From Demequina sediminis (GTDB lineage Bacteria; Actinomycetota; Actinomycetes; Actinomycetales; Demequinaceae), in NCBI RefSeq assembly GCF_030296675.1, contig NZ_AP027736.1:1426001-1490000 (forward strand): a DNA stretch of 64,000 bases, read 5' to 3'. Of this stretch, positions 6,977-55,273 are shown piece after piece. The translations under genes were made by a program, and so were the position numbers. The notes beneath the pieces are model-generated. The model made no database searches and was not told where the DNA came from. It saw only the letters and a program-made list of their open reading frames with translations. How positions within the stretch are numbered: position 1 is the first letter of the stretch; every line of letters starts with the position of its first letter.

Positions 6977-7011
6977 GGGGACGATGCCCCGCCCACCCGG
7001 GCATCGGCCCC
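6977..7011. repeat. Intergenic hairpin built on the GGACGATGCC motif
   Basis: An exact copy of the interspersed motif (6979-6988) is followed by a partial inverted copy. CGATGCCC (6982-6989) pairs with GGGCATCG (6999-7006), and after one mismatch GGGG (6977-6980) can pair with CCCC (7008-7011). It lies in the roughly 309-bp gap (6799-7107) between adhE and the OFA operon, which otherwise holds the adhE leader, the DosR-like boxes and the OFA terminator. Confidence 0.6.
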
Positions 7012-7056
7012 CCGACTTCCGGGGTGGACGGCGCGTCGCGCACGCCTGCCCAGACG

Positions 7057-7096
7057 CCGACGGGGACCGGCGCCGTGCGGCGCCGGTCCCCGTCGG
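7057..7096 (-). terminator. Strong hairpin terminator of the OFA transporter operon
   Basis: A perfect 18-bp stem (7057-7074 with 7079-7096) closed by a GTGC loop lies 11 nt past the stop of the small membrane protein. It has no U-tract. Confidence 0.85.
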
Positions 7097-7107
7097 TCGA
7101 GGCGGGA

Positions 7108-7239
7108 CTATCCCGTGAAGAGCGCGAACGCCTTGATGGCCGTCTGGCTCACGCCGTACAGCAGCGCGGCTCCCACGAGCACCCACAGGACATACGCGAG
7201 GGGCTGCGAGGCGCCCTTGTTCTGCGGCTCCTGTGCCAT
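7108..7239 (-). CDS. 43-aa membrane protein, OFA/MFS transporter small subunit
   Basis: This small gene starts 3 nt after the stop of the OFA-type MFS gene. It encodes 43 residues: a polar start (MAQEPQNKGASQPLAY), one hydrophobic helix (VLWVLVGAALLYGV, about 17-30) and a short tail ending in FALFTG. Its position and form match the small proteins annotated beside oxalate/formate-family carriers as an MFS transporter small subunit. It probably sits in the membrane as an accessory to the carrier; the functional role is inferred. The stop (TAG) is followed by a strong hairpin terminator, so it is the last gene of the two-gene operon. The upstream SD lies within the end of the transporter gene (GGAG near 7251). 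Confidence 0.8.
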   Translation of the reverse strand: MAQEPQNKGASQPLAYVLWVLVGAALLYGVSQTAIKAFALFTG

Positions 7240-7242
7240 GGC

Positions 7243-8618: not shown

Positions 8619-8720
8619 CGTTGTTCTCCCTTCGGGGGCTCACGACGTTGGGGGCAAGGGGGTTTTCGAAAAACGTTGTTACCTGACCTGAATGGTGGAC
8701 TCCGTCGGGCACGGAATCGA

Positions 8721-8734
8721 AGGACCTAGGTCAC
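8721..8734 (+). promoter_or_regulatory. DosR-like box upstream of the OFA transporter
   Basis: AGGACCTAGGTCAC matches 10 of 14 positions of GGGACTWWAGTCCC and resembles the adhE boxes. It is 103 nt upstream of the transporter ATG, nearly the same distance as at adhE. The site also lies upstream of the divergent TDT gene. Confidence 0.35.
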
Positions 8735-8753
8735 GAGGAATGCGCGCGTCTCG

Positions 8754-8768
8754 ATACACCCCCGGTAT
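8754..8768. promoter_or_regulatory. Possible degenerate CsoR/CstR-type site upstream of the TDT gene
   Basis: ATACACCCCCGGTAT has inverted ATAC/GTAT ends around a C/G-rich core, like the much better palindrome at the rhodanese promoter (10261-10276). It is 60 nt upstream of the TDT start. The symmetry is imperfect, so this is tentative. Confidence 0.25.
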
Positions 8769-8827
8769 ACGCTCGGAGGCGAGGGTCGGCGCTCGCCCGA
8801 CCCGGCATCGTCCCGCCAGGAGGAGCC

Positions 8828-9793: not shown

Positions 9794-9811
9794 CGCGGAA
9801 CGCTCCGCGTC
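9792..9811. terminator. Bidirectional hairpin between TDT and rhodanese genes
   Basis: GACGCGG (9792-9798) pairs with CCGCGTC (9805-9811) around a 6-nt loop in the 23-bp gap between the two convergent genes. Confidence 0.5.
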
Positions 9812-9816
9812 CCGCC

Positions 9817-10251: not shown

Positions 10252-10257
10252 GCGGAC

Positions 10258-10276
10258 ACTATACCCCAGGGGGTAT
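10258..10276 (-). promoter_or_regulatory. Rhodanese promoter with CsoR/CstR-type operator
   Basis: The minus-strand -10 is TATAGT (10258-10263), exactly 6 nt before the ATG. Overlapping it is the perfect palindrome ATACCCC-AG-GGGGTAT (10261-10276), the form bound by CsoR-family repressors including the persulfide sensor CstR. Repression would block RNA polymerase directly. No csoR/cstR gene is in the window. Confidence 0.65.
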
Positions 10277-10299
10277 CGAGCACGAAAGCGCCCGGCCCC

Positions 10300-11684: not shown

Positions 11685-13148
11685 CTACTCGGCCGGGATC
11701 AGGGTGTACTTGGTGGACAGGTATTCGTGAATGCCCTCGGCGCCGCCCTCGCGGCCCAGGCCCGACTGCTTGACGCCGCCGAACGGAGCGGCGGCATTTG
11801 AGACCACACCGGCGTTGAGGCCCATCATCCCCGTGTCGAGGAGATCGACCATGCGGTGCCCGCGCGCCAGGTCTCGCGTGTAGACGTAGGAGACCAGGCC
11901 AAACTCGGTCGAGTTGGCGAGCTCCACCGCCTGCGCCTCGGTCGCGAACGTCGCGATCGCGAGCACGGGGCCAAAGATCTCCTCGGTGAGGATCTCGCTG
12001 CCTGGCCGGACGCCCGTGACGACGGTCGGCGCGAAGAAGTGTCCCGGGCCGTCGAGGGCCGCGCCGCCGGTCGCGACCGCGGCGCCCCTGGCCACGGCAT
12101 CGTCCACGAGCGAGGCCGACTTCTCGACCGCGGCCGCGTCGATCAGCGGCCCGATCTGCACCCCGTCCTCGGTGCCGCGACCTACCTTCATGACCCCGAC
12201 GCGCGCGGTGACGCGACGCGCGAACTCCTCGGCGACGGACTCGTGCACGATGAACCGGTTGGCCGCGGTGCAGGCCTGGCCGATGTTGCGGAACTTCGCC
12301 GCGAGCGCGCCCTCGACGGCCGCGTCGAGGTCCGCGTCCTCGAACACCACGAACGGCGCGTTGCCGCCGAGCTCCATCGACACCCGCAGCACGCCGTCGG
12401 CGGCCTGCTTGAGGAGCGCGCGGCCCACCTCGGTCGAGCCGGTGAAGGACAGCTTGCGCAGCCGCGGGTCGGCGATGACGGGCGTCGAGACGCCGCGCGA
12501 GTCGGTCGTGGTGACCACGTTGACCACGCCGGCCGGCACGCCCGCCTCCTCGAGGATGCGCGCGAGCAGCAGCGTCGTGAGCGGCGTGAGCGCGGCGGGC
12601 TTGACCACCACGGTGCAGCCGGCCGCGAGCGCGGGCGCGATCTTGCGCGTCGCCATCGCGAGGGGGAAGTTCCACGGCGTGATGAGGTACGACGGCCCCA
12701 CGGGCCGCTGCGACACCACCATCCGGCCGGTGCCCTCGGGATTGAGCCCGTAGCGACCGGTGATGCGCACGGCTTCCTCCGAGAACCACCGCAGGAACTC
12801 CGCGCCATACGCGACCTCACCGCGCGCCTCGGCGAGCGGCTTGCCCATCTCGAGCGTCATGAGCAGCGCGAGGTCCTCCTTGCGCTGCTGCGCCAGGTCA
12901 AACGCGCGGCGCAGGATCTCAGCACGCGCTCGAGGCGCGGTGGCGGCCCACGCGTCCTTCGCCTCGACCGCCGCGTCGAGGGCGCGCATTCCGTCCGCGG
13001 GAGACGCGTCGGCGATCGACAGGAGGGTCGCGCCGGTCGACGGGTCCGTGACGTCGAAGGTCGCGCCGGAGGACGATGCCTGCCACCGGCCCCCGATGAA
13101 CAGACCGGTCGGCAGAGAGTCGAGAAGGGCGCGTTCGGCATCGCTCAT
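11685..13148 (-). CDS. gabD: Succinate-semialdehyde dehydrogenase (NADP+)
   Basis: A 487-residue ALDH of the GabD type: TPWNFPLAMATRKIAPALAA, ELGGNAPFVVFEDAD (general base Glu), NIGQACTAANRF (catalytic Cys) and PFGGVKQSGLGREGG. It converts succinic semialdehyde to succinate, feeding GABA carbon into the TCA cycle. The ATG overlaps the gabT stop by 4 nt (13145-13148). Two copies of the 10-bp interspersed motif lie inside the gene (12096-12105 and 13071-13080). With gabT upstream, the GABA assignment is firm. Confidence 0.93.
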   Translation of the reverse strand: MSDAERALLDSLPTGLFIGGRWQASSSGATFDVTDPSTGATLLSIADASPADGMRALDAAVEAKDAWAATAPRARAEILRRAFDLAQQRKEDLALLMTLEMGKPLAEARGEVAYGAEFLRWFSEEAVRITGRYGLNPEGTGRMVVSQRPVGPSYLITPWNFPLAMATRKIAPALAAGCTVVVKPAALTPLTTLLLARILEEAGVPAGVVNVVTTTDSRGVSTPVIADPRLRKLSFTGSTEVGRALLKQAADGVLRVSMELGGNAPFVVFEDADLDAAVEGALAAKFRNIGQACTAANRFIVHESVAEEFARRVTARVGVMKVGRGTEDGVQIGPLIDAAAVEKSASLVDDAVARGAAVATGGAALDGPGHFFAPTVVTGVRPGSEILTEEIFGPVLAIATFATEAQAVELANSTEFGLVSYVYTRDLARGHRMVDLLDTGMMGLNAGVVSNAAAPFGGVKQSGLGREGGAEGIHEYLSTKYTLIPAE

Positions 13149-14515: not shown

Positions 14516-15882
14516 GACTGCGAGCCTAGGGCGAGTCCGTCGGTGACTTCTAGGGCGGCGTCGATGACGTCGAGCCCGCGGCGCAGCTCGTCCTCCGTGA
14601 TGACGAGCGGTGGCGCGAGGTGTGTGCGGTTGAAGTGCAGGAACGGCCACACCCCCGCCTTCTTGCACGCCGAGGCAAACGCGGCCATGGGGGCGGCGTC
14701 CGCCCCGGACGCGTTGAAGGGCACCAGCGGCTCGCGCGTCTCGCGGTCCCTCACCAACTCGACGGCCCAGAACAACCCCGCGCCGCGCACGTCACCCACC
14801 GAGGGGTGCGTCTCGAGCCAGCGCGTCACGGTCGGTTCGACCACGCGCGTCCCGAGGTCGCGCACGCGCTCGAGGATTCCGTCCCGCGCGAAGACCTCGA
14901 AGGTCGCGACACCCGCGGCGCACGCGAGCGGATGGCCGGAGTACGTGAGCCCGCCGGGGAAGGCACGCTGATCGAAGGCGCGCGCGATGTCTCCCGAGAT
15001 CACCACGCCACCCAGCGGCACATAGCCCGAGTTGACCCCCTTGGCGAACGTGATGAGGTCGGGCACGACGCCGTGCGCCTGGAAAGCGAACCACTCGCCC
15101 ACGCGCCCGAATCCCACCATGACCTCGTCCGCAATGAGCACGATCCCGTGGCGGTCGCACAGCGCGCGCACGCCCTGCAGATACCCGGGCGGCGGCACCA
15201 GCACGCCGTTGGTGCCCACGATGGTCTCGAGGACGATCGCCGCGATGGTCGACGCGCCCTCGAGCATGATCACCTGCTCGAGGTGCGCGAGAGCGCGCTC
15301 GGCCTCCTCCTCGGGGGTGGTCGCGCCCCACGCGGAGCGGTAGAGGTAGGGACCGAAGAAGTGGACGATGCCCGGGTCGGCGGGCTCGTTGGGCCACCGC
15401 CGGGGGTCTCCCGTGAGCGCGATCGCGGTCGAGGTGTTGCCGTGATAGCTGCGGTACATCGCGAGCACCTTGCGCCTGCCGGTCGAGAGGCGTGCCATGC
15501 GCACGGCGTTCTCGTTGGCGTCGGCGCCGCCGTTGGTGAAGAACACCTTCTCGAACGGCTCTCCAGCGACCTCGACGATCCGCCGCGCGAGCTCCCCGCG
15601 GACGTCGTTCGCGAACGAGGGCTGCACGGTCGCGAGGCGGCGCGCCTGGCGCTCGATCGCCGCGACCAGGTCGGGATGCTGGTGACCCAGGTTGAGGTTC
15701 ACCAGCTGAGACGAGAAGTCGAGGTAGCGGTTGCCCTCGTAGTCCCAGAACTCGGATCCCGCGCCGCCCTCGACGGGCAGCGGGTCGATCGTCGCCTGGG
15801 CGCTCCACGAGTGAAACACGTGACCGCGGTCGTCGGCGCGCACGCGCGCCTCCTGCCCGGTCATCGCCTGCTGCGCTGTCAT
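14512..15882 (-). CDS. Class III omega-aminotransferase (beta-alanine/taurine:pyruvate type)
   Basis: A 456-residue PLP aminotransferase, separate in type from GabT. It has HSWSAQATIDPLPVEGGAGS at the start, VFFTNGGADANENAVRMAR, MYRSYHGNTSTAIALTGDP, IADEVMVGFGRVGEWFAF and the PLP Lys in LITFAKGVNSGYVPLGG. This matches omega-amino acid:pyruvate and taurine:pyruvate-like enzymes. With the methylmalonate/malonate-semialdehyde dehydrogenase just upstream, beta-alanine to malonate semialdehyde is a likely reaction; taurine or another amine is possible. The SD AAGGAG precedes the ATG. It lies 39 nt after mmsA and overlaps gabT by 4 nt. Confidence 0.85.
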   Translation of the reverse strand: MTAQQAMTGQEARVRADDRGHVFHSWSAQATIDPLPVEGGAGSEFWDYEGNRYLDFSSQLVNLNLGHQHPDLVAAIERQARRLATVQPSFANDVRGELARRIVEVAGEPFEKVFFTNGGADANENAVRMARLSTGRRKVLAMYRSYHGNTSTAIALTGDPRRWPNEPADPGIVHFFGPYLYRSAWGATTPEEEAERALAHLEQVIMLEGASTIAAIVLETIVGTNGVLVPPPGYLQGVRALCDRHGIVLIADEVMVGFGRVGEWFAFQAHGVVPDLITFAKGVNSGYVPLGGVVISGDIARAFDQRAFPGGLTYSGHPLACAAGVATFEVFARDGILERVRDLGTRVVEPTVTRWLETHPSVGDVRGAGLFWAVELVRDRETREPLVPFNASGADAAPMAAFASACKKAGVWPFLHFNRTHLAPPLVITEDELRRGLDVIDAALEVTDGLALGSQS

Positions 15883-17495: not shown

Positions 17496-19109
17496 ATGGA
17501 GATCGCCGAACGTCGCGATATCGACACCCGCCGAACGAATCGTCCGAAGCGCTCGGCGCTGGCGGCGCTGCCCACCGTGGGCGAGCTTCTCGAGGACGAT
17601 GCCTTCCGGGCCGGTGTGCCCGAGGTGGTGGTCGGAGGCGCCGCCCTCGAGGCCCCCGTGAGGTGGGTGCACACCTCCGAACGGGGCGACATCGCGCGCA
17701 TGCTCGAGGGCCGCGAGCTGTTGCTGTCGATGGGCACCGCGTGGCCCGACACGGACGCCGAGCTGCGCCGCTTCATCGAAAGCCTGGTCGAGGCCGGCGT
17801 CTCCGCGCTGGTGCTCGAGCTCGGCACGCGCTACTCCGAGACCCCGCCGGTCGTGCGCGACGCGGCGCAGCGCGCGGGGCTCGCGTTGATCGTCCTTCAC
17901 CGCGAGGTGAGGTTCATCGCGCTCACCGAGGCGGGCCACAGCCGCATCATCGCGGGCCAGATGGCGGCCCTCAAGGCGCGCGACGAGGTCCGAGAGCTGT
18001 TCACGAGCCTCACGCTGCGCGGCGCCCCGGCGGACCACGTGGTGCGCGAGCTCGCGCGCACGCTCGGCTCGCCCGTGGTGCTCGAGAGCCTCGCGCACGA
18101 GGCCCTCATCTCGGAGGTGCCGTCCGGCTCCGAGGCCGCGGTGCTCGCCGATTGGGAACGCCGCTCGCGCGCCGCACACCGCGAGGCGTCCGATGAGGAC
18201 GGCTGGCTCGTGGTTCCCGTCGACGCGCGCGGCAAGCGGTGGGGATCGCTCGTCGCGCTGCCCGGACCGCCGCATGCCGCGGGGCGACGCAACGTGCTCA
18301 TCCAGGGAGCGATCGCTCTCGCGCTCGGGCGCCTGGCCGACGGCGGCGCGGACGAGTGGGCAACCCTCGCGCGCCGTCACCTCCTCGATCCGCTCCTCGC
18401 CGGCCGCTTCGCGACCTCCGAGGCGGTCACCGCACGCCTCGAGGCCGCCGGGGTGCCCGTCGCCGGACGCCTCCTGTACGGCCTCGCGCTGCGCGGGGCC
18501 GCGCACTCGGCGACCGCGGTCGAGGCCTGGGCGCTCACCCTCGGCGGGCGCGCCCGCGCGCTCGCCCTGCCCGACCGGACCGGCGGGCCGCTGACGGTCG
18601 TGCTGCTGTCGCAGCCCGCGCATCGTCCCCTCGACGACTCCTCGCTGGCCGCGCTGCTGCGCACGCTTGGGGAGGGAAGCCGCGTGTCCGCGACCGTGGG
18701 CCGCGCGGCCTCGGGAGTCGACGCCGCGGTGCTGTCGCTGCACGAGGCGATCGACAACGCGGCCGAGGCCCCCACGGGCGCCGTGCTGTGGGTCGAGCGG
18801 CGTCCCCTCGCGCGGCTGCTGTCGAGCCTGCGCGACGATCACCGGCTGATCGACCACGGCGAGCGCATGCTCGCGCCGATCATCGAGCACGATCAGCGCG
18901 TGGGCGGCGACCTCCAGCGGGTGCTGCGCGCGGCGCTCGCGCACCCGGGCAACAGGACCGCCGCCGCGCGGGCGGCTCACCTCTCGCGATCGGTGTTCTA
19001 CCAGCGCCTCGAGCTCATCTCGACGCTGCTCGACGTGGACCTGGAGGACGGGGAGACGCAGACCGCGCTGCACATCGCGCTGTTGTCGCGGCCGGGCACG
19101 CGCGGGTAG
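17496..19109 (+). CDS. PucR-type transcriptional regulator (GabR-like) of the GABA/amine genes
   Basis: A 537-residue PucR-family regulator. An N-terminal purine-catabolism regulatory domain (about 25-150; PTVGELLEDDAFRAGVPEVV) is followed by a GGDEF-like/central region and a C-terminal helix-turn-helix (AALAHPGNRTAAARAAHLSR, VFYQRLELISTLL near 480-520), the usual PucR HTH. In Corynebacterium glutamicum the gabTDP operon is activated by a PucR-type protein, GabR, so control of the adjacent minus-strand catabolic operon is a good inference. A copy of the GGACGATGCC motif lies at 17594-17603. The leaderless start is supported by the -10 spacing. Confidence 0.88.
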   Translation: MEIAERRDIDTRRTNRPKRSALAALPTVGELLEDDAFRAGVPEVVVGGAALEAPVRWVHTSERGDIARMLEGRELLLSMGTAWPDTDAELRRFIESLVEAGVSALVLELGTRYSETPPVVRDAAQRAGLALIVLHREVRFIALTEAGHSRIIAGQMAALKARDEVRELFTSLTLRGAPADHVVRELARTLGSPVVLESLAHEALISEVPSGSEAAVLADWERRSRAAHREASDEDGWLVVPVDARGKRWGSLVALPGPPHAAGRRNVLIQGAIALALGRLADGGADEWATLARRHLLDPLLAGRFATSEAVTARLEAAGVPVAGRLLYGLALRGAAHSATAVEAWALTLGGRARALALPDRTGGPLTVVLLSQPAHRPLDDSSLAALLRTLGEGSRVSATVGRAASGVDAAVLSLHEAIDNAAEAPTGAVLWVERRPLARLLSSLRDDHRLIDHGERMLAPIIEHDQRVGGDLQRVLRAALAHPGNRTAAARAAHLSRSVFYQRLELISTLLDVDLEDGETQTALHIALLSRPGTRG

Positions 19110-20988: not shown

Positions 20989-21046
20989 GGCATCGTCCCC
21001 GCGCACGACGCTCTGTCCGGACAGGGCCCTGCGCAGGGACGATGCG
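20989..21046. repeat. Inverted pair of the 10-bp interspersed motif in a divergent intergenic region
   Basis: GGCATCGTCC (20989-20998) and the inverse GGACGATGCG (21037-21046) form a 10-bp stem (20990-20999 with 21036-21045), continued by GCGC/GCGC (21001-21004 with 21031-21034). The loop holds the perfect palindrome CTGTCCGGACAG (21013-21024). The roughly 300-bp region 20903-21203 otherwise shows no gene. It lies between divergent genes, so it is not simply a terminator. Confidence 0.7.
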
Positions 21047-26392: not shown

Positions 26393-26842
26393 TCAAGGGG
26401 TCGCAAGGGCCGATGCGGTGGCCGTCAGCGCCACTCGGCCCGGCAGCCAGTCCGCGCCAAAGAGCACGGGAGTGGAGAGCGCGACGCTCACCTCCACGGT
26501 GGTCCCGTCGGGGGACGATGCCCGGGTCAGGATCGCGCCCGGCATCCCCTGGCGAGCGGCGGAGGCGGCGAAGTGCTCGCGGGCCTCGTCCGCGAGCCGG
26601 TCCGGGTCCAGCGTGGCGGGCCCCTCCCCCACTCCCGTGGCGTAGTACGCGTCGAGGTCGATCGCGTCGGCCGCCGCGAGCGCGGTCTCGTCCGCGACGT
26701 GCGCGAGCCGCGCGCGCTGCAGCTGGACGTGAGTGATCGCCGCGACCGTCACCACGGCGGCAAGCAGCACCCCGATCAGCCCGATCGTGAGCACGGTGAC
26801 CGAGCCCTCGTCATTGCGACGGTCGACAAGCCGGCGTCTCAT
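26393..26842 (-). CDS. TadE/Rv3654c-like pseudopilin-type protein
   Basis: A 149-residue protein with a basic start ([20 protein letters not shown]), one N-terminal helix (about 13-35, starting after DEGSVTVL like a prepilin-processed segment) and an extracytoplasmic domain. It matches the Rv3654c-type TadE/TadG-like proteins that end actinobacterial Tad clusters. It is the last gene of the Tad operon and its ATG overlaps the preceding tadE-like stop by 4 nt. The motif GGACGATGCC lies at 26513-26522. It is probably a minor pilin or secreted factor; function is inferred from position. Confidence 0.75.
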
Positions 26843-27333
26843 GGCACGTAGCCGTCGACGGGGCTCGCGGCCGTCGCATCGAGCGTCACGCGCGCGGGGA
26901 TGACGGCGCTGACGAAGGCGGGGACGCCGGGCAGCGCGACGTCGATCTCGACGCGCGCCCGCACGGTCGAGCCCGCGCTCAGACACTGCGCGTCGCAGTC
27001 GAGTTCGACGCGCGCCGCACCGATCCCGAAGTCCCCGGCCACCACCTCGGCGGCCAGGGCCGCCGACTCACGGGCTGCCTGGGTGGCGGCGGCGGGCTCG
27101 AGTCCCGCGTCGAGCGCGTCGAGGCCCGTGACGACAGCGGCCCTGGCGGCGGCATACGCCGCGCCCTCGGCGGCGTAGGCGCCTGCCTGGACCCGCGTCA
27201 TCGCGACCACCAGGTAGAGGATCGGCAGGAGCAACACGAGCGTGAGCGCGAGGAACTCGACCGCCGCGGCGCCGTCGTCCCCACCCGGACCACCCCCGCG
27301 CGGCCGGTGCCCGCGCGACTCGTCACGGGGCAT
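26839..27333 (-). CDS. TadE-like minor pseudopilin
   Basis: A 164-residue TadE-family protein: a polar start, then DDGAAAVEFLALTLVLLLPILY, the classic E-at-+5 prepilin-like segment followed by a helix, then an Ala-rich periplasmic domain with two Cys (ELDCDAQCLSAG). It starts at the ATG at 27333, overlapping the upstream tadE-like gene by 11 nt, and an interspersed motif copy (27329-27338) covers this start codon. It would seed or cap a Tad/Flp pilus. Confidence 0.8.
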   Translation of the reverse strand: MPRDESRGHRPRGGGPGGDDGAAAVEFLALTLVLLLPILYLVVAMTRVQAGAYAAEGAAYAAARAAVVTGLDALDAGLEPAAATQAARESAALAAEVVAGDFGIGAARVELDCDAQCLSAGSTVRARVEIDVALPGVPAFVSAVIPARVTLDATAASPVDGYVP

Positions 27334-27711
27334 CGTCCACCCCCTCGAGCAGCGCGCGCCCGCCCGCCTCGACGCGGCCGCCATCCCACAGCGCGAGCAC
27401 GGGAACGGACGCGTCGAGGGTGATCCGCACGCCCGCGCGGCCGCCCACGGGAAGGTGTTCGACGGTGACCGTGGGCGCGATCCCCAGCGACGACTCGGCG
27501 CACGCGGCCGCGCGCGCGGCGCCGGCATCGTCCCCCTGCCGCGCGACCGCGGCGACTCTCGCCCCTCCGACGCGCACGCGGTGAGCGTGCTGCGCACGTG
27601 AGACGCGAGCACGATCTGCAGCACACCGAGAGCGACCGCCACCACCAGCGCCGCGACCAGCACAAACTCGACGGCGGCGCTGCCGGCGTCAGCCTCCCGT
27701 GACCGACTCAA
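27323..27711 (-). CDS. Second TadE-like pseudopilin (frameshift in the sequence)
   Basis: The N-terminal half (READAGSAAVEFVLVAALVV, then a helix and SHVRSTLTACASEG) and the C-terminal half (RVAAVARQGDDAGAARAAAC through ALLEGVDDAP) are in different frames. Adding one base in the C4 run 27562-27565 joins them into one TadE-like protein of about 129 residues. The start is probably TTG at 27711, inside the end of the upstream small pilin gene; no better start is in frame. The interspersed motif is at 27524-27533. It is probably intact in the real genome. Confidence 0.65.
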
Positions 27712-31500: not shown

Positions 31501-32202
31501 ATGTGCGGCCGCTACGCGAACTTCCTCACCGAGCAAGAGCTCATCGACGCCTTCGAGATCGCCATCGTCGCCGATGACGCCCGGCTCTCTCCCCGCTACA
31601 ACATCGCGCACACGCAGGAGGCGGCGATCGTCGTCGCGCGCACGCGGGAGAACAGCGCCGCGGAGGGGCGCTCGCTCGAGCTCGCCCGGTGGGGACTCGT
31701 GCCGTCATGGGCCAAGGACCCCTCGGTGGGCTCGCGCATGTTCAATGCCCGCTCCGAGACGGTCGCGGAGAAGCCGTCGTTCCGCGCGGCCTTCGCCAAG
31801 CGCCGCTGCCTGGTCCCGGCGAGCGGCTACTACGAGTGGCGCACCCAGGCGGGCGTCAAGACGCCCTACTTCATCCACAGCAGGGACGAGTCCCCGCTCG
31901 CCTTCGCCGGCCTGTTCGAGTTCTGGCGTGACAAGGCCAAGGGAGACGATGCCCCGTGGCTGGCGTCGTTCTCGATCGTCACCACCGCGGCCCGCGGGGC
32001 CATGGAGGAGATCCACGACCGCCAGCCGGTGATGCTCACGCGCGGCGAGGCCGACGCGTGGCTGGACCCGGCATCGTCCCCCGACGATCTCATGGCGGCG
32101 ATCGCGGCGCCCGCGCCGGAACTCGCGTGGCACGAGGTCGGGCGCGAGGTCGGCAACGTCCGCCACCAGGGCGCGGAGCTCATCGCGCCCGTGTCAGGCT
32201 GA
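31501..32202 (+). CDS. SRAP (YedK/HMCES-like) DNA abasic-site crosslink protein
   Basis: A 233-residue SOS response-associated peptidase-fold protein. It begins MCGRYANF, with the invariant Cys2 that forms a thiazolidine link to abasic sites in single-stranded DNA after Met removal. Other conserved features are RYNIAHTQ, RWGLVPSWAKD, FNARSETVAEKPSFR (active-site Asn and Glu), LVPASGYYEW and the His in EIHDRQPVML. It shields abasic sites at replication forks. The start follows a leaderless -10. It contains an interspersed motif copy at 32070-32079. Confidence 0.95.
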   Translation: MCGRYANFLTEQELIDAFEIAIVADDARLSPRYNIAHTQEAAIVVARTRENSAAEGRSLELARWGLVPSWAKDPSVGSRMFNARSETVAEKPSFRAAFAKRRCLVPASGYYEWRTQAGVKTPYFIHSRDESPLAFAGLFEFWRDKAKGDDAPWLASFSIVTTAARGAMEEIHDRQPVMLTRGEADAWLDPASSPDDLMAAIAAPAPELAWHEVGREVGNVRHQGAELIAPVSG

Positions 32203-34335: not shown

Positions 34336-34386
34336 GAGGGGACGATGCTGGGGCCCGGCGGGCGGGAGGGTCCGGGCGGTGCGGGC

Positions 34387-36102: not shown

Positions 36103-38541
36103 TCAGGCGCGCACGGATGCGGGCGACGAGGCGGGGGCGGAGGCGGTCGAGGCGAGCTCGGCTTCGAGCCGCTTGCTCTCGCGGCGATTGCGGAAGAAGC
36201 CGGAGACCACTCCCCCGATCCCGCGCAGGTGCTTGCCGTTCACCAGGGTGACGATCGCGTCGACCATCTCCATGCTGACCGCGCCGTTGGTCATCTTGCC
36301 GATCGCACGGAACGGCATGTTGTACAGGAAGAACAGGTTGAGGTCGGGCTTGCCACGACGCTGCGAGCGGTCGATCAGGGAGCGCAACACCTTCGCCGCG
36401 AGCCGCGCGAGCGGGCTCGGGGCCTGGTGCATCGCGAGCAGCGGCGAGTTCGCGTGGAGCGGCCCGCGCGCCTCCGTGTGCGCCGGCAGCGCGCGGCCCA
36501 ACAGCACCTCGAACTCGGCGTCGCTCACGTGAGCGACCTGGCCCGAGTAGTAGGACGGGAGGTCGGCGCGCCGGTCGACCGCCGCGGCCTCGCCCTCAAC
36601 GCGCAGCGTGGCCACGCCCCGGATGTCCTCGACGGAGGCACCCACGCCGATCCAGTACTCGCCGGCCTCGACGCTCCAGCCGCCCTGCGCGACCGAGTAG
36701 TGACGGAACGTGCGCTCGTCGAAGGGAATCGTCACGGTCGCGGTCTCGCCGGGTGCGAGGCGCACCTTGCGGAATCCCTTGAGCTCACGGGCCGGACGGT
36801 GGACGCCGTTGGAGACGCGGCCCACGTACAACTGCGCGACCTCGGCACCCTCGACGTCGCCGGTGTTCTCGAGCGTGAAGGTGACCCCGGCATCGTCCAC
36901 CCGCACGTCGCCGTAGGCGAACGTCGTGTAGCTGAGGCCGTAACCGAACGGGAAGAGCACCGGCACCTGGGCCGTCGTGTAGTAGCGGTAGCCCACGTAG
37001 AGGCCCTCGCGGTACTCGGCGGCCTCGCGGACGCCGGGGAAGTACGCGTGGCTGGGGTTGTCCTCGAGGTGCAGCGGGTAGGTCTCGGCGAGGCGCCCCG
37101 ACGGGTTGACCGCGCCGGTGAGCACGCGCATCGTCGCCTCGGCGCCGGCCTGGCCGCCCAGGTAGCCGTGCACAATCGCGCGGGCGTCGTCGATCCACGG
37201 CATCTCGATCGCGGACCCGGCGGCGAGCACCACGACGATCCTGTCCGTCGACTGGCGCAGGCGGTTGAGCAGCTCGACCTGGTTGACGGGCAGCTCCATG
37301 TGCGTGCGGTCGTTGCCCTCGGACTCGCTCGTCTCGTCGAGACCCAGGTACAGCAGCACCACGTCGGCGGCGCGCGCGGCCTCGACGGCCTCCGCGGCGA
37401 GAGTCTCGTCGGCGCCGCCCGAGCGGCGGAAGCCCTGAGCGAAGCTCACGAGCGCGAGGCCCGAGCCCTCGACCGCGTCGAGAGCGCTCGACAGCCGCGT
37501 GGGGTTGACCAGCGAGGAGCCGGCGCCCTGGTAGCGGGGGGTCTGGGCGAAGTCGCCGATGATCGCGACGCGCGTGCCCTCGGCAAGGGGCAGCAGCGCA
37601 TCGTCGTTCTTGAGGAGCACCTGGCTCTGCTCGGCGACCCGGCGCGCGAGCTCGTGCTGCGCCTGCGCATCGACGGCCCGCGCGAGGCTCGGGTCGATCC
37701 TGTCGATGAGCGTGCGCATCTCCTGCACGCGCACGTCGAGCTCGGCCTCGGTGAGGCGACCCTCGGCGACCGCGGCGAGCAGCTGGCGCGCCGAGTCGAG
37801 TCCGGGCGAGGGCATCTCGAGGGTGCCGCCCGCGCGCACGGCCTCGACGGCATCGTTTGAGCCGCCCCAGTCGGAGATCACGGCACCGTCAAAGCCCCAC
37901 TCGTCGCGCAGGACGGTCTGGAGCAGGTGCGCGCTCTCGTGGGCGTACGCGCCGTTGACCAGGTTGTACGAGGACATGATCGACTTGGGGGCGGCGTCGC
38001 GCACCACGATCTCGAACGCGGTCAGGTAGATCTCGCGCAGCGTGCGCTCGTCGACCACGGAGTCGCTCGCCATGCGGCGGTGCTCCTGGCTGTTCACCGC
38101 GAAGTGCTTGGGGCATGCCGCCACGCCCTGCGACTGGATGCCGCGCACGTAGCCCGCCGCGAGCGTCCCCGACAGGAACGGGTCCTCCGAGAAGTACTCG
38201 AAGTTGCGCCCGCACAGCGGGCTGCGCTTGATGTTGAGTCCGGGACCGAGCACCACGTCGACGCCCAGCGCGACGGCCTCGGCACCCAGGGCCTCGCCCA
38301 CCTGCTCGGCGAGCTCGAGATCCCACGAGTTCGCCACGGTCGCCGCCGTCGGGAAGCACGTCGCCTCCGCGGAGGCGTTGATCCCCAGGTGGTCGCCCGA
38401 GCCGAGCTGCTTGCGGATGCCGTGCGGACCATCGGACAGCGTCAGCGCGCGGATGCCCGCCCGCTCGACGGCGCGCGTCTGCCAGATGTTCGCGCCGCTG
38501 AGCAGCGCCGCCTTCTCCAGCAACGTGAGCTCGTGTGACAT
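36103..38541 (-). CDS. Glycoside hydrolase family 3 beta-glucosidase (cytoplasmic, extended C-terminus)
   Basis: An 812-residue GH3 enzyme with no signal peptide. The (alpha/beta)8 domain has substrate-binding sequences LTLSDGPHGIRKQ, KHFAVNSQEHRR and the nucleophile Asp224 in VISDWGGSND. The alpha/beta sandwich domain follows (QSQVLLKNDDALLPLA; YLGLDETSESEGNDR), then a fibronectin type III-like domain (FPFGYGLSYTTFAYG; RPARELKGFRKV). The last 120 residues are an unusual tail without a recognised domain. It would hydrolyse beta-linked glucosides taken into the cell. LytTR-type direct repeats lie about 195 nt upstream. Confidence 0.92.
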   Translation of the reverse strand: MSHELTLLEKAALLSGANIWQTRAVERAGIRALTLSDGPHGIRKQLGSGDHLGINASAEATCFPTAATVANSWDLELAEQVGEALGAEAVALGVDVVLGPGLNIKRSPLCGRNFEYFSEDPFLSGTLAAGYVRGIQSQGVAACPKHFAVNSQEHRRMASDSVVDERTLREIYLTAFEIVVRDAAPKSIMSSYNLVNGAYAHESAHLLQTVLRDEWGFDGAVISDWGGSNDAVEAVRAGGTLEMPSPGLDSARQLLAAVAEGRLTEAELDVRVQEMRTLIDRIDPSLARAVDAQAQHELARRVAEQSQVLLKNDDALLPLAEGTRVAIIGDFAQTPRYQGAGSSLVNPTRLSSALDAVEGSGLALVSFAQGFRRSGGADETLAAEAVEAARAADVVLLYLGLDETSESEGNDRTHMELPVNQVELLNRLRQSTDRIVVVLAAGSAIEMPWIDDARAIVHGYLGGQAGAEATMRVLTGAVNPSGRLAETYPLHLEDNPSHAYFPGVREAAEYREGLYVGYRYYTTAQVPVLFPFGYGLSYTTFAYGDVRVDDAGVTFTLENTGDVEGAEVAQLYVGRVSNGVHRPARELKGFRKVRLAPGETATVTIPFDERTFRHYSVAQGGWSVEAGEYWIGVGASVEDIRGVATLRVEGEAAAVDRRADLPSYYSGQVAHVSDAEFEVLLGRALPAHTEARGPLHANSPLLAMHQAPSPLARLAAKVLRSLIDRSQRRGKPDLNLFFLYNMPFRAIGKMTNGAVSMEMVDAIVTLVNGKHLRGIGGVVSGFFRNRRESKRLEAELASTASAPASSPASVRA

Positions 38542-38764: not shown

Positions 38765-38835
38765 CGAGTGCCTGGTGTGAGCCCGTTTTTGGGTCGGGCG
38801 AAGCCGCCCGTGGGGTCATCGGGGAAGGTGGGGGG

Positions 38836-38874
38836 ACGATGCCGGGCCCCGCGGGGGACGAGGCCCGGCATCGT
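38836..38874 (-). terminator. Hairpin terminator of the permuted GH3 gene, made of the 10-bp motif
   Basis: ACGATGCCGGGCC (38836-38848) pairs perfectly with GGCCCGGCATCGT (38862-38874) over 13 bp with a 13-nt loop, 4 nt past the GH3 stop. The left arm carries an exact GGACGATGCC (38834-38843) and the right arm a 2-mismatch inverse copy. Confidence 0.75.
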
Positions 38875-45276: not shown

Positions 45277-46121
45277 CTAGCTCCGCCGCACGCGCACGTC
45301 TCCGGCGAAGACCACGCGGTCGGTGCCCGCCGCGGTGCGCACGACGAGCGCGCCGGATTCGGTCAGCCCCGTGGCGCGGCCCGTGATCGGCTCGCCGTCG
45401 GGAACTTCGACCGCGACGTCCCATCCGAGCGTCGCGGTGACCCGCTCGACCTCGCCGCGGATGTCGGCCCCCGCCTGCCACTGGGCGACGGCGTCCTCAG
45501 CTCGGCCGCGAGCAGTCCCGCGAGGGTCGGCCGGTCCAGCGCCGTGGCACCGAGCGTGGCGAGCGACGCCGCGTGAGGCACCGGCAGCTCCGCGGGAGAC
45601 TGCGAGACGTTGATGCCGATTCCGGCGACCAGGGCATCGTCCCCCGGCACGGCCTCACACAGGATGCCCACGCACTTGCGCCACCTGCCCCAGCCCGCGA
45701 TGTCGCGCACCCCCGCCTCGACGACCACGTCGTTGGGCCACTTGAGCCACGCGCCCACTCCCACGCGCCGCAGCGCGCGCACGGTCGCGAGGCCAGCCAC
45801 GAGGGGTGCCCAGCCGTAGTCGGCACGATCCACGTGGTCGGGCCTGATGAGGAACGATGCCGTGAGGGCCGCGCCGCGCGGCGTCACCCACGCGCGTCCG
45901 GCGCGCCCGCGGCCGGCCGTCTGGTGGTCGGCGATGAGGACGCTGAGGTGCGGCCACTCGTCTCCATCGCGGGCCACGAGGTCGAGCAGCCTGGTGTTCG
46001 TCGAGGCCGAGGTTGGCAGCACCTCGAGGCGTGCCAGCGTCGCGGGGACGAGCCCCGCGAGAGACGCGGCGGTGAGGGGGCGACGCGAGCGCGCGGTCTC
46101 GTCGGCGCCTGGCGTGCTCAC
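45277..46121 (-). CDS. birA: Biotin-protein ligase (frameshift in the sequence)
   Basis: A monofunctional biotin ligase of about 281 residues without the N-terminal HTH of E. coli BirA. It has [38 protein letters not shown] and VGILCEAV. The frame breaks near 45498, where one extra C (minus-strand G) restores LLAAELEDAVAQW; the rest then reads through to VRVRRS and TAG at 45277-45279. It attaches biotin to the carboxylase alpha subunit encoded at 52081. The GTG start at 46121 lies 6 nt after a TAGCCT -10, so the mRNA is probably leaderless. The break is probably a sequencing error. Confidence 0.87.
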
Positions 46122-47749: not shown

Positions 47750-47991
47750 GCGAGGCCGAGTCCGCGGCGCGCGAGTCCGGCTTGCGCGTCGTCCGCGGCG
47801 CCCCCGACGAGGCCGAACTCGCCGCACTGGTCGCCGGCATGGCGGCCATGGCGTCGGCTGCCGCCGCCGACGCCGACGAGCCGGGCAATCCGCTGTCCGC
47901 CTGGATGGACCGCTCGAGGACGATGCGCGGGCACCGGGCGACGTTCCCGCTCGCCCGCGGCGCGGACTCCTGGCGGCACTCGCTCCGATGA
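47746..47991 (+). CDS. Acyl-CoA carboxylase epsilon subunit
   Basis: An 81-residue protein with the epsilon-subunit pattern: [20 protein letters not shown] near the start and a C-terminal Trp/Arg-rich segment ([11 protein letters not shown]). This small subunit, found in actinobacteria, stabilises or activates the alpha-beta carboxylase. The GTG overlaps the beta subunit stop by 4 nt, and its stop overlaps the next gene by 4 nt. Confidence 0.85.
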
Positions 47992-49620: not shown

Positions 49621-51237
49621 GTGTCCGCACCCGACGCCGCCCGCGCGCGCCTCGACGACGCCCTGGCCGAGGGCATCTCGGAGTCCACCTTCCGCCGCCG
49701 CTGGGCCATCCTGGCCACGCTCTGCCTCGGGCTGATGACCGCGATGATCGCGAACATGAGCCTCAATTTGGCCCTGCCCGACATCGCCGTCGACTTCGAA
49801 CTCACCCAGCTCCAGCTCACGTGGGTCGTCGAAGCCTTCGCGCTCGTGTTCGCGGCGCTACTCTTCATCGCCGCCGCGATCGCGGACCGCTACGGTCGCA
49901 AGCGCGTCATGATGATCGGCCTCGTCATCTTCGTGGCGGCGTCGATCTACGCGCCGTTCTTCGCGACCACTGGCGCGGAGCTCATCGCCTCGCGCGCGGT
50001 GATGGGAGTTGGCGGCGCCCTCGTGATGCCCACCACGCTGTCGCTCGTCAACGTGGTGTTCCCGTCGCGCGAGCGGCCCAGGGCGATCGCGATCTGGTCC
50101 GCCGTGGCGGGCGTGGGCATGATGATCGGCTCGGTGCTGACGGGCGTGCTGCTGCACTTCTTCGACTGGCACTCCGCGTTCCTGCTGGGGGCCGTGTTCG
50201 GCATCGTGTCGCTCGTCGTCGCGCAGGTGATCGTGCCCGAGTCGGTCGACGAGAAGCGCACGCCTGTCGACTGGGTGGGTGGCGCGCTCGTGACGATCGC
50301 CCTCGCGGGGCTGGTCTACACGATCATGGAGGCGCCGTCGCACGGCTTCGACGAGCCCCTCACGGTGGCCGCCGCGGTCGCCGCCGCGCTCGCCCTCGCG
50401 GCCTTCATCGCGTGGGAGCGCCGTGCGCGCTTCCCGCTGCTGGACCTGTCACTGTTCCGCCGGTCGCGCTTCACGCTGTCCGTGGTCTCGGTCACGCTGA
50501 CGTTCTTCGCGATGATGGGCGCGTTCTTCGGCATGACCCAGATCTTCCAGCTCGTCATGGGGTACGACGCGCTCGCGACCTCGCTCGCGTTCATCCCCTC
50601 GATGCTGCCGATGATGATCATCGGGCCCATGATCCCCCGACTCGTCGAGAGGGTCGGCACGCGCTGGACGGTCGTGCCCGGACTGGTGCTCATCGCGGGC
50701 GGCTTCCTGCTGATGACCACGTGGCCCACGGTGCCCTCATACTGGGACTTCCTGCTGGCGATGAGCACCATCACGCTCGGCATGGCGATGGTCATGACAC
50801 CCGCGACCAACCTGCTCATGGCCTCCGTGCCGCGTAACCGGTCGGGCATGGGCTCCGCGATGAACGACACCACGCGCGAGCTGGGCGCCTCGCTCGGCAT
50901 CGCGGTGCTCGGCTCGATGATCGCGAACGCCTACACCGCGAACATCGGCGACGTCGCGGCCCAGCTGCCCGGCGAGGCCGCGCGCGTGGTCGAGGACTCG
51001 TTGGCCGGCGCTCTCGCCGTGACGGATCAGATGGGTCCCGCGGGCGCCGCGATCGCGGAGGCCGCGCGGGCCGCGTTCATGGACGCCAACCAGCACGCGA
51101 TGCTGATCTCCGCGATCATCGCCGCCGCAACGGCGGTGCTCATGCTCGTGGCCCTGCCGCGCGGGGACAAGTCCCTCGCCGCCGCCGAGCAGGAGCAGGA
51201 GCAGGAGGAGGACGATGCCGTGGTCGCCGCCCGTTAG
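49621..51237 (+). CDS. 14-TM MFS drug exporter (EmrB/QacA type, DHA2)
   Basis: A 538-residue transporter with about 14 helices: RWAILATLCLGLMTAMIANM, LALPDIAVDF (motif D1-like), ADRYGRKRVMMIGLVIF (motif A), AIWSAVAGVGMMIGSVLTGV (motif C-like) and an acidic C-terminal tail, EQEQEQEEDDA. It would export drugs or other hydrophobic compounds using the proton gradient. The GTG at 49621 follows the SD AAGGAG. Control by the divergent MarR protein is likely. The final codons carry an interspersed motif copy (51210-51219), and the stop codon forms part of the maf -10. Confidence 0.9.
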   Translation: MSAPDAARARLDDALAEGISESTFRRRWAILATLCLGLMTAMIANMSLNLALPDIAVDFELTQLQLTWVVEAFALVFAALLFIAAAIADRYGRKRVMMIGLVIFVAASIYAPFFATTGAELIASRAVMGVGGALVMPTTLSLVNVVFPSRERPRAIAIWSAVAGVGMMIGSVLTGVLLHFFDWHSAFLLGAVFGIVSLVVAQVIVPESVDEKRTPVDWVGGALVTIALAGLVYTIMEAPSHGFDEPLTVAAAVAAALALAAFIAWERRARFPLLDLSLFRRSRFTLSVVSVTLTFFAMMGAFFGMTQIFQLVMGYDALATSLAFIPSMLPMMIIGPMIPRLVERVGTRWTVVPGLVLIAGGFLLMTTWPTVPSYWDFLLAMSTITLGMAMVMTPATNLLMASVPRNRSGMGSAMNDTTRELGASLGIAVLGSMIANAYTANIGDVAAQLPGEAARVVEDSLAGALAVTDQMGPAGAAIAEAARAAFMDANQHAMLISAIIAAATAVLMLVALPRGDKSLAAAEQEQEQEEDDAVVAAR

Positions 51238-51240: not shown

Positions 51241-51246
51241 CGCGGC

Positions 51247-51915: not shown

Positions 51916-51988
51916 TTTGTAGAGGCGACACAACGACCGGACCCCTGGCAGGGCATCGTCCCCCGGGACTTTGTACCTATCCCACAAA
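51916..51988. promoter_or_regulatory. Two TTTGT...ACAA-type inverted repeats upstream of the carboxylase alpha gene
   Basis: TTTGT-(9)-ACAAA at 51970-51988 and a weaker TTTGT...ACACAA at 51916-51933 lie in the 192-bp gap between maf and the biotin carboxylase gene. An interspersed motif (51952-51961) sits between them. They could be operators for a lipid-synthesis regulator; no match to a named site is claimed. Confidence 0.3.
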
Positions 51989-52068
51989 ACGGGCCCGCCC
52001 CACCTGTCGCCCGGCACAGTCTTGGCCCGTGCCGCGCCCGGCGAGGCACTCCCCGGTGATGCCCGCGC

Positions 52069-52074
52069 TACGGT
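52069..52074 (+). promoter_or_regulatory. -10 element of the carboxylase alpha gene, leaderless
   Basis: TACGGT is followed by 6 nt and then the GTG at 52081. Confidence 0.55.
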
Positions 52075-52080
52075 TTCGGG

Positions 52081-53859
52081 GTGACTGCCTTCTCCTCCGT
52101 CCTGGTCGCGAATCGCGGCGAGATCGCGGTTCGCATCATCCGCGCATGCGCCGATGCGGGCCTGCGCTCGATCGCCGTCTACGCGGATCCCGACCGCGAC
52201 GCGCCCCACGTGTCCCTCGCCGACGAGGCCTTCGCGCTGGGCGGCTCGACCGCGCGCGAGACGTACCTCGACATCGAGGCACTCATCGACGTCGCGCGCC
52301 GCTCGGGCGCCGAGGCCGTCCACCCGGGCTACGGCTTCCTCGCCGAGAACTCTGACTTCGCGCGCGCCGTGATCGACGCCGGGCTCACGTGGATCGGCCC
52401 CTCCCCCGACGCGATCGACGCGCTGGGCGACAAGGTCAGCGCGCGCCACATCGCGCAGCGCGCCGGCGCCCCGCTGGTGCCTGGCACCCCCGACCCGGTC
52501 GAGACGGCCGACGAGGTCGTGGCATTCGCCACCGAGCACGGCCTTCCCGTCGCGATCAAGGCCGCCTTCGGCGGCGGCGGACGCGGCCTCAAGGTCGCCC
52601 GCACCCTCGAGGAGATCCCCGAACTGTTCGACTCGGCGACGCGCGAGGCCGTCGCGGCCTTCGGTCGCGGCGAGTGCTTCGTCGAGCGCTTCCTCGACCA
52701 CCCGCGCCACGTCGAGACCCAGTGCCTCGCCGACGCACACGGCAACGTCAAGGTGATCTCGACGCGTGACTGCTCGCTGCAGCGCCGCCACCAGAAGCTG
52801 GTCGAGGAGGCGCCCGCGCCCTTCCTCACCGACGAGCAGAACGCGCGCCTGGTCGCGGCGTCCGAGGCGATCCTCACCGAGGCGGGCTACCTGGGCGCTG
52901 GCACATGCGAGTTCCTCGTGGGCATCGACGGCACCATCAGCTTCCTCGAGGTCAACACGCGCCTCCAGGTCGAACACCCCGTGACCGAGGAGGTCACCGG
53001 GATCGACCTCGTGCTCGAGCAGTTCCGCATCGCGGCGGGCGGCTCGATCGCGCACCTCGCGCCCGAGGTGCGCGGCCACTCGATCGAGTTCCGCATCAAC
53101 GGCGAGGACCCCGCGAACGGCTTCATGCCGGCGCCCGGCCGCCTCACGACCCTGCGCTTCCCGAGCGGTCCCGGCGTGCGCGTCGACGCGGGCGTCGCCG
53201 AGGGTGACACCGTGTCGGGCAACTTCGACTCGATGATCGCGAAGGTGATCGTCACGGGCGCGACCCGCGACCAGGCGCTCGCCCGCGCGCGCCGCGCCCT
53301 CGCGGAGATGACCGTCGAGGGCATCCCCACCGTGCTCCCGTTCCACCGCGCCGTGCTCGACGCGCCCGAGTTCACCGCGATCGGCGGCTTCCGCGTCTAC
53401 ACCACGTGGATCGAGTCCGGATTCGCCGATGCCGTGGCCGCCCTGGCACCCGCGGCGCCCCAGCAGGACGAGGCTCCCGCGGAGGCTGTCGAGCGGGTGA
53501 TCGTCGAGGTGGGCGGCAAGCGCCTCGAGGTCGTGCTGCCCGCCTCGCTTGCGCAGGCGGGCCGGGCTGGAGCGCGCACGGCGGGCAGGCGTCCGCTACG
53601 CCGCGCGGGCAACGGCGGGCCGTCGCGCGCCGCATCCGGGGCGACCCTGTCGTCGCCCATGCAGGGGACCATCGTCAAGGTCGCCGTGGCCGAGGGCAAC
53701 ACCGTGGCCGAGGGCGACCTCGTGGTCGTGCTCGAGGCCATGAAGATGGAGCAGCCGCTCACGGCGCACCGCGCGGGCGTGGTGCGCTCGCTCTCCGCGA
53801 CCGTCGGCGCCGGCGTGACCGCCGGCACCGCGATCTGCGACATCGTCGACGCCTCCTAG
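52081..53859 (+). CDS. Acyl-CoA carboxylase alpha subunit (biotin carboxylase + BCCP)
   Basis: A 592-residue fusion protein. The biotin carboxylase part has [20 protein letters not shown], the glycine-rich ATP-grasp loop [15 protein letters not shown], and [16 protein letters not shown] low-complexity Ala/Arg-rich linker (about 475-520) leads to the biotin carrier domain, with the biotinylated Lys555 in EAMKMEQ. It carboxylates biotin with bicarbonate and ATP and supplies the beta subunit encoded at 46161. The GTG start follows a leaderless -10. BirA, encoded nearby, is the expected biotinylating enzyme. Confidence 0.95.
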
Positions 53860-53887
53860 GGGCCTCGCGTCCGCTGCTCCGCGCCCG

Positions 53888-55273
53888 CTACTCCACGGCG
53901 GTGACGCGGTGGAGGCGACGTGCCGCCTCCGACACGGTGCCCGTGAGCGACGGGTAGACCGTGAACGCGCTCGCGACGGCGTCGACCGTGAGGTGCTGCG
54001 CCACCGCGAGTGACAGCGGGAAGATGTGCTCGCTCGCGCGAGGGCCCACGACCACGGCACCGAAGACCTGGCCCGTGATGGTGTGGCCGAAGACCTTGAC
54101 GAAGCCCTCGTCGATGCCGAGCATCTTGGCGCGCGGGTTGCCCTTGAGGTCCAGCCGGGACACCTCGTAGAAGATGCCCCGCTCCTTGAGCTCCTGCTCG
54201 CTCGCCCCCACCGACGCGATCTCGGGCACCGTGAAGACGTTCGAGGCGACCAGGTTGAGGTCGATCGGCGTGACGGCATCGCCGAGCGCATGCGCCATCG
54301 CGATGCGTCCCTGCGTCGCCGCGACCGAGGCCAGCGGCAGCACGCCCGTGCAGTCGCCCGCGGCGTACACGCCCCTCGCAGTGGTGCGGCTCACGCGGTC
54401 GACCTTGATGAGGCCGCGGGAGTCGACCTCGACGCCCGCCTCGGCGAGGCCCAGGTCCTCGGTGTTGGGCACCGACCCCACGGCCATGAGCGCATGGCTG
54501 CCCTCGAGCACGCGGCCGTCCTCGAGCGAGACCTCGACGCCGGCTCCCGTGTTGCGCACGGTCGACGCGCGGCCACCCACGACCGTCATGCCGCGGTCGC
54601 GGAACACCTGGTTGAGGTGCGCCGAGGCCTCGGGGTCCTCGTGGGGCAGGAGCCTGTCGCCCGACGCGACGAGCGTCACGTCGCTGCCGAGGAGGCCGTA
54701 TGCCCCCGCGAACTCAGCGCCCGTGACTCCCGAGCCGACCACGATCAGCCGCTCGGGCACCTCGGTAAGGTCGTACAGCTGCGTCCACGTGAGCACGCGC
54801 TCGCCGTCGGGCTCACAGCCCGCCACGACGCGAGGACGCGCGCCCACGGCCAGCAGGACGGCATCGGCGTCCAGGGCATCGTCCCCGACCTCGACCCGCT
54901 GCGGCCCGGCGAGCCGCGCGCGGCCCTCGATCACCCGCACGCCGTCGCGCTCGAGCCGCGCCGCGATGTCGGAAGACTGCTTGCGCACCAGGGTCTTGAT
55001 GCGCGCGTTGACGCACTCCATGTCGACGGTGAGCGACTCGGTGAGATCGCCGCCGTCGGGGCGACGGATGCCGAGTTCGGGGGCACGGCCCGCGATGGTG
55101 AGCCACTCCGCGGTGGCGATCACGGTTTTCGAGGGGACAACGTCGGTGAGGACGGCATTTCCGCCGAGACCCTGGCGCTCGACGAGCGTCACCTGGGCCC
55201 CTGCCTTGGCGGCCACCAGGGCCGCCTCATAGCCGCCCGGACCGCCGCCAACAATCACGACGCGAGGGGACAT
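53888..55273 (-). CDS. NAD(P)H-quinone dehydrogenase, LpdA-like flavoprotein
   Basis: A 461-residue member of the disulfide reductase superfamily lacking the redox-active Cys pair: the active-site helix reads LGGNAVLTDVVPSKTVIATA where dihydrolipoamide dehydrogenase has the two Cys. FAD binding is shown by VVIVGGGPGGYEAALVAAKA, NAD(P) binding by LIVVGSGVTGAEFAGAYGLL and a second FAD motif by GVYAAGDCTGVLPLAS. Mycobacterium LpdA (Rv3303c), which has the same change, reduces quinones. The ATG at 55273 is chosen; a GGAGG lies too close to it to be an ideal SD. It is divergent from the purine nucleoside phosphorylase gene and carries a motif copy at 54875-54884. Confidence 0.9.
   Translation of the reverse strand: MSPRVVIVGGGPGGYEAALVAAKAGAQVTLVERQGLGGNAVLTDVVPSKTVIATAEWLTIAGRAPELGIRRPDGGDLTESLTVDMECVNARIKTLVRKQSSDIAARLERDGVRVIEGRARLAGPQRVEVGDDALDADAVLLAVGARPRVVAGCEPDGERVLTWTQLYDLTEVPERLIVVGSGVTGAEFAGAYGLLGSDVTLVASGDRLLPHEDPEASAHLNQVFRDRGMTVVGGRASTVRNTGAGVEVSLEDGRVLEGSHALMAVGSVPNTEDLGLAEAGVEVDSRGLIKVDRVSRTTARGVYAAGDCTGVLPLASVAATQGRIAMAHALGDAVTPIDLNLVASNVFTVPEIASVGASEQELKERGIFYEVSRLDLKGNPRAKMLGIDEGFVKVFGHTITGQVFGAVVVGPRASEHIFPLSLAVAQHLTVDAVASAFTVYPSLTGTVSEAARRLHRVTAVE

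Follow-up and report, generated by a model that had tools for sequence, protein, structure and literature searches.

Sequence-tagged DNA uptake, with discrimination at the cell surface, is described for two Gram-negative families in a 2016 review (PMC5031613). In the Neisseriaceae, eight dialects of the DNA uptake sequence (DUS) share an invariant CTG core that is required for transformation, and the dialects are reported to follow the whole-genome phylogeny (PMC3630211). Dialects of the uptake signal sequence (USS) of the Pasteurellaceae are likewise reported to follow the whole-genome phylogeny, and a minor pilin has been predicted as the USS receptor (PMC12616744). Here, we analyzed a 64,000-nucleotide stretch of a high-G+C Gram-positive genome (the window; bases 1,426,001-1,490,000 of one 2,705,399-base contig, from an assembly that is 92.99% complete), in which the 10-bp word GGACGATGCC recurs on both strands. 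We consider it likely that a genome-wide word with dialects across the genus takes the form GGACGATGCC in this species and serves as a DNA uptake sequence by which the cell favours DNA of its own kind. With slightly less assurance, we think that the word probably belongs to a third uptake-sequence system, independent of those of the Neisseriaceae and Pasteurellaceae, which would be the first in Gram-positive bacteria and would comprise two families and many dialects that are read by type IV pili and act as an exchange barrier.

At the sequence level, the pattern resembles that of the Neisseriaceae DUS dialects. As described for DUS (PMC3630211), the word is nonpalindromic (GGACGATGCC differs from its own reverse complement), falls in the range of ~10-12 bases, reaches a huge copy number, occurs as several dialects per family around a short invariant core and is partly arranged in dyad pairs. 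The DUS receptor is the type IV pilus pilin ComP (PMC3630211), and type IV pilus genes are present here. However, the two words are unrelated and belong to different phyla: the core here is CGAYGC, none of the words found here has a CTG core, the host is a high-G+C Gram-positive bacterium, and the dialects do not follow the sole gene tree built (PilC). Like USS, the system has a nine-base core and dialects; the nine-base GGACGATGC occurs at ~347 per Mb in this genome, compared with 31-913 per Mb given for USS (PMC12616744), but word and phylum differ, and there are more dialects per genus than the two USS types. The actinobacterium Micrococcus luteus is naturally transformed by ComEA/ComEC-based uptake that uses Flp/Tad pili (PMC4322843); neither 'uptake sequence' nor 'sequence specific' occurs in the main text of that paper. 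Campylobacter jejuni is reported to have another way of preferring its own DNA at uptake, with methylation as the tag (PMC8468864). In mycobacteria, uptake sequences had yet to be reported according to a 2023 paper (PMC10526031), and no actinobacterial case was found among the papers listed by our searches of the open-licence PubMed Central (PMC) literature, in agreement with the earlier note on this DNA.

The window contained 17 exact copies of GGACGATGCC, seven on the + strand and ten on the - strand, all between 6979 and 54884. The earlier note had correctly placed the word on both strands, but its count of 16 copies, ten in one orientation and six in the other, was not reproduced. In 100 dinucleotide shuffles of the window, the mean count was 0.46 and the maximum was 3; when window 10-mers were ranked against a third-order Markov model, GGACGATGCC came first (17 versus 0.49 expected). 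The copies of GGACGATGCC, followed by those of GGACGATGC with the base next to them, are as follows.

6979..6988, + strand: GGACGATGCC, outside called genes, with an imperfect inverted copy 3' (hairpin-like)
8804..8813, - strand: GGACGATGCC, outside called genes
12096..12105, - strand: GGACGATGCC, within a called gene
13071..13080, + strand: GGACGATGCC, outside called genes
15363..15372, + strand: GGACGATGCC, within a called gene
17594..17603, + strand: GGACGATGCC, within a called gene, read GAC GAT GCC
20989..20998, - strand: GGACGATGCC, within a called gene, paired with the opposite nine-base copy at 21037
26513..26522, + strand: GGACGATGCC, outside called genes
27329..27338, - strand: GGACGATGCC, within a called gene
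27524..27533, - strand: GGACGATGCC, within a called gene
32070..32079, - strand: GGACGATGCC, within a called gene
36889..36898, - strand: GGACGATGCC, within a called gene
38834..38843, + strand: GGACGATGCC, outside called genes
45633..45642, - strand: GGACGATGCC, within a called gene
51210..51219, + strand: GGACGATGCC, within a called gene close to its 3' end, read GAC GAT GCC
51952..51961, - strand: GGACGATGCC, outside called genes
54875..54884, - strand: GGACGATGCC, within a called gene
3975..3983, - strand: GGACGATGC, next base G
18620..18628, - strand: GGACGATGC, next base G
21037..21045, + strand: GGACGATGC, next base G, forming an opposite pair with 20989-20998
34340..34348, + strand: GGACGATGC, next base T
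47918..47926, + strand: GGACGATGC, next base G
56887..56895, - strand: GGACGATGC, next base G
57151..57159, + strand: GGACGATGC, next base T
62189..62197, + strand: GGACGATGC, next base G

Across the whole 2.7-Mb genome, GGACGATGCC occurred 611 times (317 on the + and 294 on the - strand), while the reversed word, used as a control, occurred four times. In a 464-kb sample consisting of 20 evenly spaced stretches and the window, 89 copies were found versus 12.75 expected from a fifth-order Markov model trained on the same 464 kb with the word left in, so the enrichment withstood the Markov comparison that the earlier note had proposed as a check. The two best-scoring 10-mers of this sample were GCATCGTCCC/GGGACGATGC (86 versus 7.2) and GGACGATGCC. 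The earlier note had also described common flanks, which are present but weaker than claimed: over the 89 copies, preferences were clearest for G or A at -2 and G at -1, and G was also preferred at the third and fourth bases 3' of the word. The best consensus form is RGGGACGATGCC, followed by two free bases and a weakly preferred GG. Furthermore, the signal was sharp. GGGACGATGCC was 36-fold above its fourth-order Markov expectation, and single-base variants at its nine inner positions reached only 0- to 3.3-fold, with 6.5-fold and 14-fold when the first and the last base, respectively, were changed. Seven further genomes showed a like profile with small counts, which was weaker in G015 for the 11-mer chosen. 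Multicopy repeats and insertion elements were ruled out because conservation is lost a few bases away from the word. These results confirm that the word is real and genome-wide. Triplets of the word spaced 18 bases were also observed (L028:2817-2862 and genome C1:55819-55864).

We then compared 37 genomes of the genus, in 21 of which, including the source genome, dialects were read directly; the other 16, among them G011 and G020 with first contigs of < 1 kb, contributed pattern counts only. Word discovery used 60-170 kb from each of the 20 other directly read genomes, and in 18 of these 20 a CGAYGC word ranked top or near top. The forms around this invariant core include GGACGATGCS, GGCCGATGCN and GSCCGACGCT, and the dialect words differ from GGACGATGCC at one to four bases. 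The dialects were assigned as follows.

GGGACGATGCG: G017, G022, G025 and G026
GGACGATGCG: G002 and G004
GGGCCGATGCC: G036
GGGCCGATGCT: G010
GGCCGATGCC: G015
GGCCGATGCG: G014, G016 and G034
GCCGATGCGC: G031
GGCCGATGC or GCCGATGCC, weaker: G008 and G035
GCCCGACGCT: G009, and more weakly G012
GCCGACGCT: G003

No dialect word emerged from the samples of G001 and G018 or from 40 kb of the outgroup G037, and word discovery in pooled outgroup loci was uninformative because the loci are homologous to each other. Whole-genome counts were consistent with this: GGCCGATGC was 9- to 19-fold above its reversed control in 15 of the 37 genus genomes (for example, 2018 copies in G015, 1687 in G024 and 1443 in G034; G018 had 409 versus 46 reversed) and at most 2.3-fold above it in 22 outgroups from the order; the source genome had 394 versus 77 reversed. 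GSCCGACGCT occurred 1201 times in G009, with 24 copies of the reversed word. GGACGATGCC itself had 16 to 299 copies in the 36 other genomes, and the source genome, with its 611, was the highest of the 37. A second family (f20) uses GCCCGATGCC, which was counted 22 to 485 times per genome in 18 genomes versus 2 to 92 times in 41 others. Among named genomes, 21-kb loci contained seven copies of GGACGATGC in D. soli and six of GGCCGATGC in D. sp. B12. The best PilC match among named genomes was that of Demequina mangrovi (80%), followed by other Demequinaceae, Cellulomonas and Actinotalea; the sampled genus is probably Demequina.

Three further observations were made on the same genomes. A second enriched word, GAGCGCCT/AGGCGCTCG, occurred 32 times versus 5.3 expected in 84 kb of G025 and also in stretches of G000 and G003. 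In G057, the second-family word lengthens to GATGCCGTC, and the ATGCCGTC within it is identical to the opening eight bases of the 12-mer DUS of Neisseria, which is probably a coincidence. A long repeat (GGATCACCCCCGCTCGCGGGGACGG region) that looked CRISPR-like by eye was present ~20 times in stretches of G018.

Positions of the word turn over between species, and the genome preserves words rather than specific places. In 88 orthologous comparisons (8 of 96 were dropped as duplicates from overlapping stretches), the nine-mer was exact in 9 of 38 from genomes of the same dialect, 1 of 30 from genomes of another dialect and 1 of 20 from unassigned genomes, so a conserved regulatory site in each gene was rejected. 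Alignment gaps accounted for 22 of the 88; without them, 11 of 66 were exact, which is about equal to the background for aligned nine-mers generally (16.8%). A putative mobile island of 32 kb (genome ~2.148-2.180 Mb; L078, L024; low G+C, 0.60-0.61), which was the single island examined and whose bounds were set by eye, encoded two integrases of phage type, a DnaB-like helicase and separate prepilins, together with a TrbL-like gene. It held 1 nine-mer, whereas the density in the remaining sample predicted 11.2. When 144 pairs of neighbouring nine-mers were examined, ten were < 80 bp apart and seven of these ten were in opposite orientation; several close opposite pairs form hairpin-like inverted repeats. 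DUS are reportedly found in transcription terminators of Neisseria. Collectively, abundance, occurrence on both strands, independence of codons, positional turnover, near-absence from the island and dialects with a fixed core support the uptake-sequence interpretation that the earlier note had put forward, and most of the predictions of this interpretation that we examined at the sequence level are supported.

The word could in principle be a by-product of high G+C content, of codon usage or of common D-D-A and A-S-S peptides. The coding analysis covered 524 kb with 430 called genes (calls from a simple script, hence approximate) and 94 copies, of which 67 lay within genes, 25 outside and 2 across a gene edge; the gene-by-gene count gave 68. 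Since called genes make up 85% of the DNA, the 25 copies outside them fall in the remaining 15%, and the word is about twice as dense outside as inside. Two peptide readings do account for 47 of the 68 coding copies (28 as GAC GAT GCC and 19 as GCA TCG TCC), which is what a peptide origin would suggest and bears out the two frames of the earlier note for these copies; the claim fails for the other 21, with 12 read as GGC ATC GTC and 9 in other frames. However, when codons were swapped synonymously within each gene, preserving the proteins and per-gene codon counts, 100 shuffles gave 10.0 ± 2.4 coding copies (maximum 18) versus 68 observed, and shuffles that also preserved the next base gave 9.9 ± 2.6 (maximum 17). 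The A-S-S reading was found 19 times; its expectation was 0.36, rising to 0.84 when the next base was also preserved. These shuffles argue against a coding effect and show that the D-D-A and A-S-S codon pairs, named in the earlier note as a possible refutation, are no full explanation. Together with the Markov and reversed-word controls (4 versus 611) and the greater density outside genes, they led us to reject composition, codon usage and repeated peptides, an origin that we now regard as next to impossible.

The word might instead be bound inside the cell by a protein that requires numerous chromosomal sites and coevolves with them, making it a Chi-like recombination signal, a guide for translocation of the FtsK-orienting polar sequence (KOPS) type or a target of a sequence-specific nucleoid protein. 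Its genome-wide abundance would fit such a protein, as would the random spacing of the longer word GGGGACGATGCCG (coefficient of variation of gaps 1.00), and any coevolving binder could yield dialects. KOPS and Escherichia coli Chi are polar, and HIP1 is a cyanobacterial palindromic octamer for which repair, methylation or mutation bias has been suggested as the cause; these are also short over-represented words, but GGACGATGCC is neither polar nor palindromic. All 94 copies of GGGGACGATGCCG were mapped (46 + and 48 -), and their arc polarity was 0.325, defined as the largest strand difference obtained on splitting the copies into two arcs with 30-70% of them each. Permuting the strands gave 0.52 on average, with 98% of 300 permutations at or above the observed value. 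No two-arc split exceeded the permuted strands, the origin and terminus not having been located. A KOPS- or Chi-like polar element was thus rejected, and the absence of strand bias, already used in the earlier note as an argument against KOPS, was upheld. Near-absence from the island and positional turnover suit uptake better than an intracellular binder, and a change of word within a genus would, we infer, be unusual for an essential chromosome-maintenance site; a binder of this kind is therefore an unlikely explanation. If the word accumulated through a repair, methylation or mutation bias specific for its sequence, with no role in recognition, this neutral drive would leave word sites no more conserved than average sequence, which is what we observed. 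However, the word is not palindromic, unlike HIP1, its single-base neighbours at inner positions show little enrichment, the target would need to shift among members of one genus, and the putative island is scarcely affected, although it may have arrived recently. We judge such a bias to be improbable, and favour the uptake sequence.

Genes that could serve such uptake were found in the source genome. A type IV pilus locus at ~694-708 kb encodes PilB, a second T2SSE ATPase that is PilT-like by position, PilC, a prepilin peptidase, PilM and three N-methyl prepilin matches, and a ComEA-like gene lies with comEC at ~422-425 kb. N-methyl prepilin matches were present in all 37 genus genomes, and a search for ComEC in 59 genomes was positive in 57. 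In addition, an orphan 'WC' pilin of ~137 residues with a conserved WC...HP.G...PG.R...C pattern was found at several loci.

L079:5993-6406, orphan pilin
L082:6115-6531, orphan pilin
L087:6487-6987, orphan pilin
Others of the same kind at further loci

Of 12 orphan-pilin loci inspected by eye, 8 had a recognisable metE and 11 an acetyltransferase as neighbour. The orphan pilin is a natural candidate for a ComP-like receptor, and FimT, a minor type IV pilin that binds DNA and acts in its uptake (PMC8897410), is a possible model for it. A strong match (>= 144 bits) was found in 25 of the 37 genus genomes. At a 105-bit cut-off, other pilins matched the profile in 9 of the 12 genomes without the orphan pilin versus 7 of the 25 with it. 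As a separate feature, the window carries a guanidine-III riboswitch match (RF01763, 56.1 bits) at 58932-58996.

Several observations weigh against an uptake sequence. The source genome, though the richest in GGACGATGCC, has no strong orphan-pilin match (>= 144 bits) and none adjoining metE, so the orphan pilin was rejected as sole receptor there; 12 of the 37 genus genomes lack a strong match, including the word-rich G014 and G036. Members of the order that show no excess of the tested words carry pilin genes as well. The ComEA-like match falls under the NCBIfam cut-offs. ComEC is above the Pfam cut-off, yet comEC is read as two overlapping frames and a stop (genome C1:423579-424363; L077, ~8.6-9.4 kb), and pilB is likewise split over two overlapping frames (L076:4383-6085); these breaks could be true lesions, with loss of competence, or indel errors in the assembly. 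Within genes, orientation was nearly even (36 sense and 32 antisense of 68), while one orientation is reported to be favoured in every uptake-sequence genome studied (PMC2346458). G001 gave no clear word within 153 kb. On the PilC tree, which covers one gene in 21 rows and has few strong branches, dialects do not group as single clades and the A type requires at least three changes; therefore, either dialects switched repeatedly or the pilus gene moved. Finally, no paper naming both Demequina and DNA uptake was found in the open-licence PMC literature.

If GGACGATGCC is an uptake sequence, a pilin belonging to the type IV pilus encoded at ~694-708 kb would bind the word at the cell surface, pilus retraction would draw the bound DNA inward, and ComEA and ComEC would carry it through the membrane. 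Recombination would then favour alleles with the word, and copies would accumulate. An altered receptor preference could move a whole genome to a new dialect, which would lessen exchange with sister species. Self-tagging of DNA would, if this is true, have arisen at least three times, and an outer membrane would not be required for it. The genus, with its 37 genomes, would be a natural experiment for receptor discovery by coevolution, and DNA with the right word is predicted to be best for transforming such bacteria.

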